A stretch of DNA of 64,000 bases from Salegentibacter sediminis (lineage in GTDB: Bacteria > Bacteroidota > Bacteroidia > Flavobacteriales > Flavobacteriaceae). The DNA lies in contig NZ_MSJR01000004.1 in the NCBI RefSeq assembly GCF_002078605.1, positions 1 through 64,000 on the forward strand, given 5' to 3'. The first letter of the stretch is position 1. Every line of letters begins with the position of its first letter. A program made the position numbers and the translations under genes. Below the pieces are notes generated by a model, which was given only the letters and a program-made list of their open reading frames with translations, was not told the DNA's origin and ran no database searches. Positions 49,969 through 56,719 of this stretch are shown in pieces.

Positions 49969-50553
49969 ATGGAAAACCTTAAAGTAAGCGATGCTTCTCT
50001 CGTGCGCGAATATCTGGACGGAAGTGAAAACGCACTCTCTCAATTAATCTCAAGGCATCAACACCGCATTTACAGTTTTATCTATTCTAAAGTATTTGAT
50101 AAAGATGTTGCTGAAGACGTTTTTCAGGACACCTTTATTAAAGTGATCAATACTCTTAAAAGAGGAAAGTATAACGAAGAAGGTAAATTTTTACCCTGGG
50201 TTATGCGAATTGCCCATAATCTGGTGATCGATCATTTCAGGAAAAATAAGCGTATGCCAAAATTTGAAAATAAAGGCGATTTTAATATTTTTTCTGTTCT
50301 TTCTGACTCCAACCTAAATGCAGAAACGCAGTTGATCAAAGAACAAATAGAATTTGATGTGCAGGAGCTCATCAAAGAACTTCCCGAAGATCAGCTGGAG
50401 GTTTTAACTATGCGCATCTATAAGGATATGAGTTTCAAAGAAATATCGGAACGTACCGGGGTTAGTATAAACACTGCTCTGGGAAGAATGCGCTATGCTT
50501 TAATAAATCTTAGAAAAATAATCGATAAGCATAACTTAATTTTAACAAACTAA
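49969..50553 (+). CDS. RNA polymerase sigma factor, sigma-70 family (ECF type)
   Basis: The 194-residue protein has sigma region 2 (about 25-95, with 'DVAEDVFQDTFIKVI' and 'FLPWVMRIAHNLVIDHFRK') and region 4 (about 130-185, with 'LPEDQLEVLTMRIYKDMSFKEIS' and 'SINTALGRMRYAL'), and no regions 1 or 3: the ECF layout. No anti-sigma factor gene is adjacent, which is unusual for ECF factors; instead a 50-residue ORF follows. The long leader with an inverted repeat suggests control at translation. Confidence 0.9.
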   Translation: MENLKVSDASLVREYLDGSENALSQLISRHQHRIYSFIYSKVFDKDVAEDVFQDTFIKVINTLKRGKYNEEGKFLPWVMRIAHNLVIDHFRKNKRMPKFENKGDFNIFSVLSDSNLNAETQLIKEQIEFDVQELIKELPEDQLEVLTMRIYKDMSFKEISERTGVSINTALGRMRYALINLRKIIDKHNLILTN

Positions 50554-50611: not shown

Positions 50612-50764
50612 ATGGGGAACTTTTACACAAAAAACACCTCTAAAGAGGAAAAATTGAATGAATTAAAACCTAAAAGAGAAACGATAAATTTTCTTTTAAA
50701 CTATTCACGAGCTTTGAATGTCACTACATATCAAAGTATGAAGTTCGAGACTTTTCTTAATTAA
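50612..50764 (+). CDS. Small protein (50 aa) behind the sigma factor
   Basis: ATG 50612 opens a 50-codon frame ending TAA at 50764, 58 bp after the sigma factor stop and before a shared terminator. The product is hydrophilic and basic at first ('KEEKLNELKPKRETI', residues 11-25) and then likely one helix ('INFLLNYSRAL'). No cysteine or membrane segment. I do not recognise a defined family, although similar short ORFs behind this sigma factor are, from memory, seen in related genomes. A regulator of the sigma factor is a speculative possibility. Confidence 0.55.
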   Translation: MGNFYTKNTSKEEKLNELKPKRETINFLLNYSRALNVTTYQSMKFETFLN

Positions 50765-51969: not shown

Positions 51970-52026
51970 AAAAGGCTGTTTGAAGGGTTATGAATTATTC
52001 TGAATTCCTTTCAGGCAGCTTTTCTT
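51970..52026. terminator. Imperfect hairpin after the peroxidase gene
   Basis: AAAAGGCTG...TGAAGG and CCTTTCAGGCAGCTTTT can pair with bulges around a loop of about 20 bases, followed by TTTTCTTATTTTTT. It lies between convergent genes and is less regular than the other terminators. Confidence 0.5.
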
Positions 52027-52402
52027 ATTTTTTGATAAGTTTAGCGGTTTTAAGGGTTGCCAGGCTGTCGCAATTTTCAATTTGAAGCTCGAGAATTTCG
52101 GAGTCAATTTCTTCAAAAACGAGGTATACATTGCAGGGATCTCCTTTGGTATTACTTCTATTAAAATCTACATCTCCTGTTTCCAGCATTTGTGAAACCC
52201 TTGCGGTATCAAGTTTATTAGCTTCAAAATAGTTTAAAACTTCAGGAGAAAACGCCCTGGATTTTGTGCGGATATTTTTCAGGACTCTGTCGGTGGGGGT
52301 GTAATCACAGGAGGCTCTTTTTCCGCCAAGGAAAAATATCAAAAGCACAATTCCGAAAAACAATCCTACCGAGAAGTAAGCTATACGATGAATTAATTTC
52401 AT
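52025..52402 (-). CDS. Membrane-anchored DUF4258-like protein
   Basis: The 125-residue protein has an N-terminal helix (about 7-26) then a soluble domain with 'CDYTPTDRVLKNIR' (about 32-45) and a late cysteine pair region ('GDPCNVYLV', 'IENCDSL'). Three cysteines fall outside the helix, which is compatible with a periplasmic disulfide. It resembles proteins annotated as DUF4258 next to alanine dehydrogenase in Flavobacteriaceae; this is from memory. It lies 58 bp after alanine dehydrogenase on the same strand. Confidence 0.6.
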   Translation of the reverse strand: MKLIHRIAYFSVGLFFGIVLLIFFLGGKRASCDYTPTDRVLKNIRTKSRAFSPEVLNYFEANKLDTARVSQMLETGDVDFNRSNTKGDPCNVYLVFEEIDSEILELQIENCDSLATLKTAKLIKK

Positions 52403-52460: not shown

Positions 52461-53660
52461 TTAAAAAATGAGCAAATTGATGTCTCTGTAAGAAAGATCA
52501 AACCAATCTGCTATAGATTTATTGGTCAAAATTCCGTGGTAAAAGTACAAACCATTTCTTAAACCTTTGTCAAATCTCAGGGTGTTTTCCAGTCCGCCTT
52601 CTTCTGCTATATGTAACAGGTACGGGGTGAAGATATTGCTTATGGAAAGTGACGAAGTTCTGGCGTAACGAGAAGGAATATTGGGCACGCAATAATGTAT
52701 AATGTTGTGTTTGGTGAAAATAGGTTGATCATGGGAGGTAATTTCGCTGGTTTCTACACAACCGCCCATATCTATGCTCACATCTATAATTACGGCTCCA
52801 CGTTTCATCGTTTGCACCATATCGTCGGTAATAAGTACGGGGGAGCGGTTTTTTCCTCTCACCGCCCCAATTAAAACATCACAGCGTTTTATGGCCTTGC
52901 TTAAATTTTTGGGCTGTATGGTGGAGGTGTAAAAGGTGTTTCCAAGATTAGACTGAATATTTCTAAGTTTTGTAAGCGAGCTGTCAAAAACCTTTACCCT
53001 GGCTCCCAGGCCTAAAGAAGAACGGGTGGCAAATTCGCCTACGGTGCCTGCACCCAGGACCACAACCTCGATAGGGGGCACCCCGCTAATATTACCAAAC
53101 ATCAAGCCATTACCTTTTACGTGATTGCTCATTATTTCTGAAGCGATCAGGACCGAGGCTGTTCCGGCAATTTCACTCATGGCTCTTACTATTGGATAAC
53201 TCCCATCGTCATCCCGTATGAATTCAAAAGCGAGCGCAGTGATACGCTTTTCTGCCAGTTTCTGAAAGTATTGCTTGGATTGGGTCTTTAGCTGAAGTGC
53301 TGAAATTAATATCGTTTGAGGGTTGATGAGTTCCAATTCGTCCATGGAAGGTGGTTCCACTTTTAATATAGTGGGACAGGAAAAGACCTTCCTGGTGTCT
53401 TTGGTGATCTCGGCCCCGGCCTCTGAATAATCTTTGTCACTAAAACGAGCCCATTGTCCTGCACCCGATTCGATCATCACCCGGTGGCCGTGGGCTGTAA
53501 TAGCTGCTACCGCATCGGGGCTTAAACATATTCGTTTTTCCTGGTAGGAAGTTTCTTTGGGTAGCCCAATAAAGAGTTTGCCCTTGTTCTTGAAAATTTC
53601 CAGGGTTTCTTCCTGAGGAATGAGTTGTTCTTTGGTAAAAGGGGAGACCTGTTTTCCCAT
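52461..53660 (-). CDS. ald: Alanine dehydrogenase
   Basis: The 399-residue protein belongs to the alanine dehydrogenase/PNT N-terminal plus NAD-binding superfamily. The N-terminal 'GLPKETSYQEKRICLSPDA' (about 33-51) and the Rossmann motif 'VVLGAGTVGEFA' (about 200-211) are clear. It deaminates L-alanine to pyruvate with NAD. It is somewhat longer than the ~370-residue Bacillus enzyme at the N-terminus, as usual for Bacteroidota; transhydrogenase alpha is excluded by the lack of a membrane part. Confidence 0.85.
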   Translation of the reverse strand: MGKQVSPFTKEQLIPQEETLEIFKNKGKLFIGLPKETSYQEKRICLSPDAVAAITAHGHRVMIESGAGQWARFSDKDYSEAGAEITKDTRKVFSCPTILKVEPPSMDELELINPQTILISALQLKTQSKQYFQKLAEKRITALAFEFIRDDDGSYPIVRAMSEIAGTASVLIASEIMSNHVKGNGLMFGNISGVPPIEVVVLGAGTVGEFATRSSLGLGARVKVFDSSLTKLRNIQSNLGNTFYTSTIQPKNLSKAIKRCDVLIGAVRGKNRSPVLITDDMVQTMKRGAVIIDVSIDMGGCVETSEITSHDQPIFTKHNIIHYCVPNIPSRYARTSSLSISNIFTPYLLHIAEEGGLENTLRFDKGLRNGLYFYHGILTNKSIADWFDLSYRDINLLIF

Positions 53661-53719: not shown

Positions 53720-54310
53720 TTAAAGTTTCTGGTAGTAATCTTCCTGGAGTTCTTCTTCGTAGCCGTCACTCCGAAATTCATACAGATCCCTGCGATCCCG
53801 TTCTGAAAGTGGAGACATCACAGATACGTCGGTTTCCTCAATTTCGCTTAGATCAATACCGTATACCCTATCGAAAATTTTTATTCTGATAAGGTAAACT
53901 ATAGAAAGAATAGCAATAAAAAAGGGGGCAAGGTATATTAAACCATCTGTATCCATTATATAGGCAGTTTCTAAATAGACATCCTGATAAAATGTAACAA
54001 CGATTTGATAGGTGTACATGGCCATTGGTATCAATATTATATGATACCACCAATGTTTACAGGTGAAAAACCAAATAAGTAGAAGAAATAAAGGAGTAAG
54101 CTTACCTAAATAAGTCCAGGCTGCGGTCATTACATTTTCGTAATATAAACTCTCGTAGGTAAATAAAGAAGTTTCCCAAGTACGACCACTTGGGAAAATT
54201 TCATAGAGATAAAATAAATAGGGTGAAAATGCTATAGAAATAGCTATGAAACTACCCAGCAGCAGGAATTTTGATTGTTCTTTTGTCGACAGCTTGTTTT
54301 TGAATTTCAT
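53720..54310 (-). CDS. Four-helix membrane protein overlapped by a small peptide gene
   Basis: The 196-residue protein has a basic N-terminus, four hydrophobic helices (about 15-38, 58-84, 86-108 and 124-146) and an acidic cytoplasmic-type tail with many Glu/Asp/Tyr. I do not recognise a family. Its first 59 bp are shared, in another frame, with the 3' end of a 48-residue secreted-peptide ORF (54252-54398), which suggests coupled expression. It lies 59 bp before alanine dehydrogenase. Confidence 0.7.
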   Translation of the reverse strand: MKFKNKLSTKEQSKFLLLGSFIAISIAFSPYLFYLYEIFPSGRTWETSLFTYESLYYENVMTAAWTYLGKLTPLFLLLIWFFTCKHWWYHIILIPMAMYTYQIVVTFYQDVYLETAYIMDTDGLIYLAPFFIAILSIVYLIRIKIFDRVYGIDLSEIEETDVSVMSPLSERDRRDLYEFRSDGYEEELQEDYYQKL

Positions 54311-54398
54311 TACCTGTGTTATCGTTATCAGTTGTGGAAGTTACAAAAAAACTGGCTCCAAAGATAGCTGCTCCGAATAATAATGCTTTAAGTTTCAT
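54252..54398 (-). CDS. Small exported peptide (48 aa)
   Basis: ATG 54398 to TAG 54252 gives 48 residues: a typical Sec signal ('LKALLFGAAIFGASFFVTS', residues 3-21) and a short mature part of about 27 residues, acidic and polar first ('TDNDNTGNE'), then basic ('KQAVDKRTIKIPAAG'). It overlaps the membrane protein gene by 59 bp in another frame. A -7 box stands 44 bp upstream. I do not recognise it. A peptide exported or processed with the help of the overlapping membrane protein is an inference from the overlap only. Confidence 0.6.
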   Translation of the reverse strand: MKLKALLFGAAIFGASFFVTSTTDNDNTGNEIQKQAVDKRTIKIPAAG

Positions 54399-54680
54399 AA
54401 TGTATAGATTTAGTATTTGTTATTTCGTTTTGATTTCTGAAACAAACCTATAACATTATAAAACACTAAAAATTAATACATTAATTGTACTTTTGCCGCC
54501 TTTTTCGGAAGAAAAATCTAGTATTTTTGAATAAAAATTATTTTTTAGAAGTAAGTCGAAAGCCCTTGTTTTATCGGTTTAGGATAATAAAAAAGTATTT
54601 CAGCTTTTAATTCCCCTTGGATTTGTAATAATAATCTTACAACGTCTTTCGGGCATAAAATTCGAAGCTTTAAGAATTCA
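54399..54680. other. AT-rich intergenic region
   Basis: This 282-bp stretch is the largest gap inside the window. It holds no ORF that I can support. It contains one minus-strand -7 box (54443-54450) for the small peptide gene and two plus-strand TAnnTTTG matches (54488-54495, 54522-54529) with no plus-strand gene behind them. No clear hairpin terminator is seen. Confidence 0.5.
54443..54450 (-). promoter_or_regulatory. Candidate -7 box for the small exported peptide gene
   Basis: Minus-strand TAGGTTTG matches TAnnTTTG and ends 44 bp before ATG 54398. No -33 TTTG is seen at 19-21 bp. Confidence 0.4.
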
Positions 54681-55085
54681 TTAACAAATATTTAACATTC
54701 TTAAATTTTCATCTTTTATTTCCATCTTGATTTTTTGCCATTCAGGCTCCAGTAAATTTTCAATTTTTTGAGGCCATTCTATCAATTTCCAACCTGGACT
54801 TTCAAAATATTCCTCAATTCCCATATCCAGAGCTTCATTTTCATCTTCTATCCGATAAAAATCGAAATGATAAATAGGGCCTTCGGTACTGCTATACTCA
54901 TTTACCAATGAAAAAGTAGGGCTCGCCGCCAGATCTTCACTTCCCAGGGCTTTTACCAAAGCCCTGATCAGGGTAGTTTTGCCCGCTCCCATTTCTCCAT
55001 AAAATAAAAGAGTTTTGTTTTTAGCATTCTTCAGAATATAATCAACCGCCTGGTCAATTTCATTTAAATTATAGCTTAGGGGCAT
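54681..55085 (-). CDS. tsaE: tRNA threonylcarbamoyladenosine biosynthesis ATPase TsaE
   Basis: The 134-residue P-loop protein has 'GEMGAGKTTLIRAL' (about 30-43), 'ASPTFSLVNEY' (about 74-84) and 'HFDFYRIEDENE', the TsaE signature. It works with TsaB and TsaD to make t6A37 on ANN-decoding tRNAs. It lies 83 bp downstream of porX and has its own promoter box, so it need not be co-transcribed. Confidence 0.93.
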   Translation of the reverse strand: MPLSYNLNEIDQAVDYILKNAKNKTLLFYGEMGAGKTTLIRALVKALGSEDLAASPTFSLVNEYSSTEGPIYHFDFYRIEDENEALDMGIEEYFESPGWKLIEWPQKIENLLEPEWQKIKMEIKDENLRMLNIC

Positions 55086-55168: not shown

Positions 55169-56719
55169 TTATTTTGGGGTCATGACCACAAAAGGGATCA
55201 CCATTTCTTCCAGGGATACTCCCCCGTGCTGGTAGGTGTTGCGGTAATAACTTACATAATGATTGAAATTGTTTGGGTAAGCAAAGAACAGGTCCCCTTT
55301 AGCGAAAATAAAGGAACTACTCATATTTAAGGTAGGTAAATGAATGCTCTTGGGGTTTGGCGCCGCCAGCACGTCCTTTTCTTCATAGGTAAGACTTTTA
55401 CCGGTTTTATACCTTAAATTAAGGCTGGTGTTTTTGTCTCCTATTACCTTAGAAGGATGTTTTACATTTATAGTACCATGATCAGTGGTAAGGATAAGTT
55501 TAAATCCTAATTGTTGTGCCTGTTGGATAATTTCCAGTAATGGGGAGTTCTTAAACCAACTGTGAGTAAGAGAGCGATAGGATTTATCGTTTGAGGCCAA
55601 CTCCTTTATCACTTCCATTTCGGTTTTGGAATGGGATAGCATATCTACAAAATTGTAAACCACCACGGTGAGATCGTTATCCTTTTGAGTTTTGAAATTT
55701 TCAACAAGTTTCTTCCCGGCCTTTAGGCTGGTGATCTTGTGATATTCGTGCTTAATGTTTAAGCCAAGACGTTTTAACTGTTCGCTTAGGAATTCGGCTT
55801 CATGATTGTTTTTACCGCCTTCATCGGTATCGTTTTTCCAATACTGCGGAAACAGTTTCTCCATTTCACTGGGCATGAGCCCCGAAAACATCGCATTTCT
55901 GGCATATTGTGTAGCCGTGGGCAGTATACTATAGAAAGGAGACTCTTCTGTCTTTTTATAATAGGTGCTTACTACAGGTTCAAAAGCTTTCCATTGGTCA
56001 TACCTCAGGTTGTCTACTACTACTAAAAGTGTAGGTTGGTCTTTGGAGATTTCAGGAACTATCTTTTCCTTGAAAATGGTGTGGGACATTACCGGAGCAT
56101 CCGCGTTTTTCTCGAACCAGCCCGGGTAATTCTTATCTATAAATTTACAGAACTGCGTGTTGGCTTCCTGCTTTTGAGATTCCAGGATCTCGAACATCCC
56201 ACTGTCTTCAATAGTTTCCAGCTGAAGCTCCCAGTAGATCAGGCGTTGGTATAATTCGGCCCATTCCTCGTAAGAATTTACCTGGGCCATATCCATCGCG
56301 ATCTTCCTGAACTCCTGCTGGTAATTTGAAGTGGTCTTTTCTGAAATAAGCCTGGAGTGATCCAGATTCTTCTTTATGCTAAGCAGGATCTGGTTCGGAT
56401 TTACGGGTTTTATTAGATAATCGGCGATCTTGGAACCTATGGCTTCTTCCATAATATATTCCTCTTCACTCTTAGTGATCATCACGATGGGTAGGTTCTC
56501 CCTTTTCTCCTTGATTTCGGCCAAGGTTTCCAGGCCGGTGAGCCCGGGCATATTTTCGTCAAGAAAAACAATATCAAAATTCTTCTGTTCAATTTGCTCT
56601 AAAGCTTCTGTACCACTCTTGCTGGTAGTAACCTCATAATTTTTATTTTCCAAAAAAAGGATGTGCGGCTTTAGTAAATCGATCTCATCATCTACCCACA
56701 ATATCTTGATATTATTCAT
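55169..56719 (-). CDS. porX: T9SS response regulator PorX (REC + PglZ domains)
   Basis: The 516-residue protein has an N-terminal receiver domain with the acidic pair Asp10-Asp11, phospho-acceptor Asp54 in 'FLDENMPG' and Lys83 in 'ITKSEEE', then a helical linker and a large PglZ/alkaline phosphatase-superfamily domain ('LLVVVDNLRYDQWK', 'LILTTDHGTINV'). This pairing defines PorX, which controls type IX secretion genes in Bacteroidota together with PorY and an ECF sigma factor; its PglZ domain has phosphodiesterase activity. Its T9SS client class is represented at 812-2554. Confidence 0.93.
   Translation of the reverse strand: MNNIKILWVDDEIDLLKPHILFLENKNYEVTTSKSGTEALEQIEQKNFDIVFLDENMPGLTGLETLAEIKEKRENLPIVMITKSEEEYIMEEAIGSKIADYLIKPVNPNQILLSIKKNLDHSRLISEKTTSNYQQEFRKIAMDMAQVNSYEEWAELYQRLIYWELQLETIEDSGMFEILESQKQEANTQFCKFIDKNYPGWFEKNADAPVMSHTIFKEKIVPEISKDQPTLLVVVDNLRYDQWKAFEPVVSTYYKKTEESPFYSILPTATQYARNAMFSGLMPSEMEKLFPQYWKNDTDEGGKNNHEAEFLSEQLKRLGLNIKHEYHKITSLKAGKKLVENFKTQKDNDLTVVVYNFVDMLSHSKTEMEVIKELASNDKSYRSLTHSWFKNSPLLEIIQQAQQLGFKLILTTDHGTINVKHPSKVIGDKNTSLNLRYKTGKSLTYEEKDVLAAPNPKSIHLPTLNMSSSFIFAKGDLFFAYPNNFNHYVSYYRNTYQHGGVSLEEMVIPFVVMTPK

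Follow-up and report, generated by a model that had tools for sequence, protein, structure and literature searches.

A conserved, co-evolving pair of a small precursor with a signal-like start and a four-helix membrane protein in Salegentibacter sediminis and its relatives

Results

Genes and features of the locus

The window analysed here is a 64,000-nt stretch of a Salegentibacter sediminis contig (NZ_MSJR01000004.1, positions 1 to 64,000). It contains a 48-codon frame that overlaps the start of a membrane protein gene out of frame (Table 1), and the 59-bp overlap given in the original prediction was confirmed. The translation of the small frame, MKLKALLFGAAIFGASFFVTSTTDNDNTGNEIQKQAVDKRTIKIPAAG, has a charged N-terminus followed by a hydrophobic core; judged by eye and by composition, about 27 residues would remain past a plausible cleavage site. 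The neighbouring genes, all on the same strand, were also as originally described, with porX (55169-56719) and tsaE (54681-55085) upstream and the alanine dehydrogenase gene ald (52461-53660) downstream of the membrane gene. Past ald lies a 125-aa gene (52025-52402, minus strand) with a weak DUF4258 match (E 0.0042), and frames resembling it come after ald in many of the compared loci. Elsewhere in the window, a 50-codon frame (50612-50764, plus strand) lies immediately past a sigma-factor-like gene (49969-50553).

Table 1. Features of the peptide-membrane protein locus, in window positions
Feature	Position	Strand	Basis
Peptide precursor gene, 48 codons plus stop	54252..54398	-	ORF list and relatives
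Signal-peptide-like part, residues 1-21	54336..54398	-	Cleavage site inferred by eye
C-terminal 12-residue unit VDKRTIKIPAAG, covarying and repeated elsewhere	54255..54290	-	Comparison
Gene of the four-helix membrane protein (196 codons and a stop)	53720..54310	-	ORF, family profile, AlphaFold2
59-bp out-of-frame overlap of peptide and membrane genes	54252..54310	-	Sequence
Outer start of helix 2 (membrane residues 58-62), which covaries with peptide residues 5-8	54125..54139	-	Covariation
Outer end of helix 3 (membrane residues 105-109), which covaries with peptide residues 10-11	53984..53998	-	Covariation
Outer end of helix 1 (membrane Tyr34), which covaries with peptide residue 12	54209..54211	-	Covariation
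TAGGTTTG, TAnnTTTG match upstream of the peptide gene	54443..54450	-	Sequence

Of 205 peptide genes, 176 carry the motif TAnnTTTG, which we take to be a Bacteroidota -7 promoter element, in the 95 nt ahead of them, compared with a shuffle mean of 15.7 and with 75/205 on the reverse strand. The peptide gene probably heads a transcript of its own.

Distribution and pairing of the two genes

A profile built from 30 membrane proteins detected the membrane family in 281 of 397 sampled genomes and in 172 of 231 genera of the host's bacterial family (Flavobacteriaceae). In a sample of the phylum the profile matched 8 of 296, all 8 from this bacterial family, and in a sample of the order it matched 37 of 393 at E 1e-20, 36 of them from this bacterial family. 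The listed members of one large genus (g145, perhaps Flavobacterium) were without the membrane family, except for G988.

A signal-like peptide frame lay directly upstream of 206 of the 212 distinct membrane genes, and in genomes added later a peptide frame lay beside 41 of 42. In a random-position control, a signal-like small ORF occupied the same relative place at 412 of 4000 window positions (about 10%), with frames of 38-120 aa allowed in the control and of 38-250 aa in the search at membrane genes. The six membrane genes scored as peptide-less were those of L223, L258, L158, L193 (a paralog) and L132 and the L186 paralog; L132, with its broken peptide frame, and the L186 paralog were dropped as wrong assignments, which reduced 208 pairs to 206. 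A repeat-rich frame lies further upstream of the membrane gene at L158, and the real exceptions were L223 and L258, where the membrane gene is intact and no peptide frame lies between it and tsaE. At these frequencies, the membrane gene was not found to be widespread without its peptide.

Absence was joint as well. Twelve genomes that lack the membrane gene were compared. In 11 of them ald comes after tsaE and nothing peptide-like lies in between (the two adjoin directly in 10 and are separated by a different 155-aa frame in 1); the twelfth has no ald after tsaE. One of these genomes, G010 (locus L333), belongs to the window's own genus; both genes are cleanly missing there between tsaE and ald, and its ald is 92% identical to that of the window. 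A same-strand tsaE was found at 133 of the 136 analysed pairs and ald at 88, the remaining loci mostly ending before ald. These comparisons showed that the two genes occur as a unit and suggest that they were mostly gained or lost as one.

This distribution bears on a toxin/immunity reading, in which the peptide would inhibit kin or competitors and the membrane protein would bind it and shield the producer. Bacteriocin-immunity pairs, like the present pair, combine a small secreted peptide and a small multi-helix membrane partner with matched diversification and tandem copies. Here, however, most sampled genera of the bacterial family retain the genes in a single conserved position, with tsaE on one side and ald on the other, which is more like a vertically kept function, and neither PADLOC nor Pfam gave a toxin family match. 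We consider a toxin/immunity pair unlikely.

The overlap and selection on the two frames

Of the 206 pairs, 181 overlapped and 25 were separated by gaps of 71-196 nt; the commonest offset was -59 (73 pairs), followed by -62 (29 pairs). The overlap had originally been read as a sign that the two proteins work together. Joint function was supported by the pairing described above and by the covariation described below, but the overlap is not needed for it, as the non-overlapping pairs demonstrate; the peptides of these pairs retained the same kind of ending.

For each of 174 pairs, the overlapping membrane codons, and these alone, were redrawn synonymously 300 times. The peptide frame was still open in 6.4% of draws, and the share that retained the peptide end motif was 0.0000 to four decimals. 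At the membrane residue aligned with Phe15 of the window, whose codon shares its last base with the start of the peptide's Pro codon, Phe was encoded by TTC in 40/40 and Tyr by TAC in 16/16 cases, compared with 522/2440 Phe and 582/2172 Tyr in downstream membrane codons, the counts at this site coming from related sequences and hence being non-independent. The site was chosen from the membrane protein alone and covers about a third of the overlapping pairs, because the N-terminal alignment of other clades puts it outside the overlap. Counts at the codon before the peptide's Pro (TTC 71/71, TAC 19/19) were set aside as circular, because that site is picked by the peptide Pro, whose codon starts with C.

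Synonymous divergence in the membrane frame was 0.265 in the overlap, 0.284 in the next 40 codons and 0.470 in the rest, and the comparison of the overlap with the next 40 codons gave no support for the peptide frame. These two values, together with the overlap in most pairs, would fit a leader frame that serves translation of the membrane gene and not peptide production. Such a role is largely contradicted, because the ending is kept without overlap, the unit is repeated in some precursors and it covaries with distant membrane residues, and we regard it as very improbable. On the sequence comparisons made here, the overlap is a common yet dispensable arrangement of two separately selected frames.

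The 12-residue unit and its multiplication

In much of the bacterial family the peptide ends in [VI][DE][KR]xxI[KR][VI]PxxG. The window precursor carries a single copy of this unit. Six copies were found in a Sinomicrobium precursor (L144), three in another Sinomicrobium (L173) and two in Maribacter arenosus (L153); further precursors carried four (L059), three (L092, L246, L265 and, with one degenerate copy, L262) or two (L271). Exact internal repeats of at least 6 residues occurred in 9 of 204 distinct peptides versus 0 of 4080 shuffles, and the same measure identified them at the later loci L291, L292, L353 and L364. The copies inside one precursor mostly agree with each other, even when they are far from the form of the bacterial family. 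Whole genes were multiplied too: L189 has six near-identical tandem peptide genes ahead of one membrane gene, and L187 and L188 (Kordia genus) have three consecutive peptide-membrane pairs each. One distant precursor reaches 110 aa. Comparison thus showed a C-terminal unit that is conserved in the non-overlapping pairs too and that is multiplied in some precursors and arrays.

A loose pattern detected a lipobox-like signal in 50 of 208 precursors. This signal and the constant one-to-one pairing would suit a bound periplasmic subunit, lipid-anchored in some species, that holds or tunes the membrane protein and does not travel from cell to cell. Tandem units and arrays of identical peptide genes, however, are hard to explain for a one-to-one subunit, and we find this role improbable.

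Model and conservation of the membrane protein

The AlphaFold2 model (mean pLDDT 79.9, pTM 0.63) contained four long helices (residues 9-38, 60-83, 89-111 and 124-149), in line with the four-helix protein originally predicted, and a small hairpin (44-53). By the positive-inside rule, both termini and the loop at 84-88 would be cytoplasmic. The most conserved stretch was this cytoplasmic loop (mean entropy 0.44 bits) with the inner halves of helices 2 and 3 (0.92-0.94). Loop 2 and the outer end of helix 3 had entropies of 2.12-2.25, and variability was also high in both tails (3.02 at the N-terminus, 2.05 at the C-terminus) and in the inner half of helix 1 (2.19). Lys70 was invariant in the family, and Cys84, His90 and Asp120 were nearly so.

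Neither protein had been assigned to a family in the original prediction, and searches of Pfam, NCBIfam, PHROGs and PADLOC likewise yielded no credible family for either. An alignment of 30 members of the membrane family gave no TPR, AgrB or peptidase family in Pfam, and a PDB sequence search with the membrane profile found no relative. Fold searches with the membrane model gave no convincing match, with a best E of 3.6 in Foldseek and, in VIA-align, a best Z of 6.9 to unrelated proteins. The listings of a literature search of mainly open-access journals showed no description of the pair.

Covariation of peptide and membrane residues

The set used for MI comprised 136 of the 206 pairs (effective number 88), namely those with peptides of <70 aa and a 12-residue PxxG-like ending. 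Outside the overlap, the top coupling linked membrane residue 105 with peptide residue 11 (z 9.5, the best within the membrane protein being 6.2), and the next couplings (membrane-peptide) were 109-10, 62-6, 105-10, 61-8, 59-5, 58-7, 62-7, 34-12, 118-3 and 112-4. Against a tree null of 300 simulations per peptide position, 13 pairs exceeded Z 6, all at membrane residues 24-71 or 100-136, which form the extracytoplasmic half as set by helix midpoints; this half-split and the contact classes were drawn up after the first covariation table had been seen.

The neighbouring proteins served as controls. Over the same 133 taxa, TsaE gave 0/1243 tests above Z 6 versus 11/1540 for the membrane protein, one of the 11 (89-11) lying in the cytoplasmic half. 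Over 82 taxa, Ald gave 7/2959 tests above Z 6 versus 14/1485, with two of the 14 in the cytoplasmic half. Because the Ald control also has pairs above Z 6, single middling pairs are no proof; the 105-11 pair ranked first or second in every tree-simulation run. Plain MI z-scores were rejected as a test in favour of the tree simulation, since Ald exceeded the membrane protein (7.29 vs 6.62, 82 taxa; for TsaE, 3.84 vs 6.31). In a state-blind co-change test, 34-12 came first at 4.60, the remainder stayed under 2.7 and the top TsaE value was 1.76; 105-11 was absent from the top 30 of this test.

The states at membrane residue 105 and peptide residue 11 matched as Ser-Asn (37/45), Val/Ile-Ala (30/35), Thr-His (17/26), Ala-His (6/7) and Gly-Asn (7/11). 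For Ala11 and Val/Ile105, the tree held 21 peptide and 24 membrane switches; 18 times the two fell on one branch with matching direction, and never with opposite directions, compared with a null mean of 1.6 and a maximum of 7 in 5000 draws. A similar but weaker association was obtained for Asn/Ser (17 same-branch switches; null mean 5.1, maximum 12), for His/Thr-Ala (9; 1.9, 8) and at 62-6 (9; 1.4, 7), 34-12 (4; 0.5, 4) and 109-10 (9; 4.0, 11).

Within the window's genus, Ala11 occurred with Val/Ile105, Asn11 with Ser/Thr105 and His11 with Ala/Thr105. In the later genomes, the rule that Ala11 is present if and only if residue 105 is Val/Ile was true for 14 of 17 PxxG-ending peptides, Ala11 being found in only 2 of 4 Val/Ile105 proteins, and Ser105 was paired with Asn11 in 5 of 5 PxxG peptides. 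Among seven of the non-overlapping pairs, four combined Ser105 with Asn11; at L153, which is non-overlapping and has Ser105, the last unit ends in PSAG and the first in PTNG. The unit therefore covaries with the extracytoplasmic half of the membrane protein, and recognition in that half is the best, and a well-supported, reading of the covariation. Taken with the pairing, these results establish, as far as sequence comparison reaches, a conserved and co-evolving peptide-membrane protein pair.

On a maturation or export reading, the membrane protein would be the enzyme that cleaves its own peptide or the carrier that transports it. Cys84, His90, Asp120 and Lys70 could be catalytic, and recognition of a substrate would covary too. 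Cys84 and His90, however, lie at the cytoplasmic end, apart from the covarying outer residues, and no peptidase family was matched; we think such a function unlikely. The original suggestion, that the peptide is partnered by its exporter, its receptor or an immunity protein, was borne out in outline, and among these three a receptor is favoured because the covariation sits on the extracytoplasmic half. A receptor would be expected to combine a conserved inner core with an outer end that follows the ligand, although an enzyme or immunity protein could follow its partner too.

Paralogs and their DNA-binding neighbour

Many genomes carry membrane paralogs with one or, often, two four-helix domains that adjoin a protein of about 120 aa (L182-L186, L189, L191, L193, L195-L198 and L200). 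A Foldseek search with the AlphaFold2 model of this protein (mean pLDDT 88) showed a resemblance to the DNA-binding domains of phage repressors (top probability 0.99, E 0.09 and higher), and in PHROGs a transcription regulator matched it at 1e-5. In 30 genomes picked for several membrane-family matches, the DNA-binding protein was found at E <1e-40 in 28, always no more than about 1 kb from a paralog. Among the other 33 genomes, G067 reached the 1e-40 level, two of the Kordia genus reached about 1e-34, six had weaker matches and 24 had none at 1e-10; the window's genome had a weak match alone (33 bits). At L191 (571-4371), three similar 318-aa paralog genes lie in tandem and adjoin the DNA-binding protein. 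No known output domain was found in the membrane protein. The paralogs and their repressor-like neighbour hint that the membrane family works with transcription control, and they say nothing direct about the window's pair.

Discussion

We consider it fairly probable that the pair is a signalling system, made up of a secreted peptide ligand and a dedicated receptor whose specificities diversify together. The 48-aa gene would encode a Sec-exported precursor whose last 12 or so residues are the ligand, and the overlapping gene would encode a dedicated inner-membrane receptor for it. After cleavage of the signal, proteases would free the 12-residue unit, which may be bound by the membrane protein between the outer ends of its helices 1-3. 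The receptor would then relay the binding to the cell interior, the peptide acting as a signal to the producer itself or its kin. The release, the signalling and the output of the peptide are all inferred steps. Species would change specificity by matched substitutions, for example from Ala11/Val105 to Asn11/Ser105, and the overlap would couple production of ligand and receptor. More tentatively, and with chances that we put slightly short of even, the pair could represent a Bacteroidota-native pheromone system, with Sec-exported and in some cases multi-copy precursors, a 12-residue peptide, a new four-helix receptor family and a pherotype-like specificity set by peptide residues 11, 10 and 12 against membrane residues 105, 109 and 34.

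Small multi-helix membrane proteins also accompany peptides in Agr systems, in which the AgrD peptide gene lies beside the gene of AgrB, a membrane peptidase with conserved Cys and His. The present pair is similar in that its peptide gene is small and the adjacent gene encodes a small multi-helix protein in which a Cys and a His are conserved. It differs in that the window's membrane protein had no AgrB family match in Pfam or NCBIfam, as was also true of the 30 members in Pfam, and in that the window's peptide has no Cys for a thiolactone and carries a Sec-type signal. LytS-type sensor kinases of Bacteroidota were also compared, and kinship with them was not established. A kinase-like protein at L098 matched helices 2-3 of the profile at E 4.4e-5; it was the only one of seven proteins to match, a usable protein having been obtained from 7 of 31 loci, and hhalign with these seven gave probabilities of 35% (A3) and 18% (A1).

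The RRNPP/RRNPPA systems of Bacillota, including Phr-Rap and arbitrium, resemble the pair in having a small Sec-exported precursor beside the receptor gene and specificity between receptor and peptide; RRNPP propeptides are described as small (10-100 aa), Sec-exported and encoded directly beside the receptor gene (PMC10075063). The window's peptide agrees with this description, having 48 aa, a signal-like start by eye and composition, and adjacency to the membrane gene as in nearly all pairs. The receptors differ. RRNPP receptors are cytosolic TPR proteins of about 250-500 aa, whereas the proteins here are four-helix membrane proteins of about 160-230 aa (196 aa in the window, where Pfam gave no TPR match), unrelated in sequence and found in Bacteroidota. 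Multi-copy pheromone precursors are likewise described for Bacillota (PMC11343458), and tandem units of this kind were found in some relatives, the window's peptide having a single unit. By the way in which the pair may work, RRNPP and Agr systems are the nearest kinds; by membership the pair belongs to neither.

The locus offers a clear natural case of two overlapping frames each under separate selection, and for both of the protein families involved the searched libraries gave no match. To our knowledge, communication by a peptide and a dedicated receptor is known mainly from Gram-positive bacteria. If the receptor reading is true, a synthetic 12-mer could be used as the ligand, and one could predict from the specificity code which species answers which peptide. 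The pair is widely kept in a family of abundant marine polysaccharide degraders, and it would open their social behaviour to direct test.
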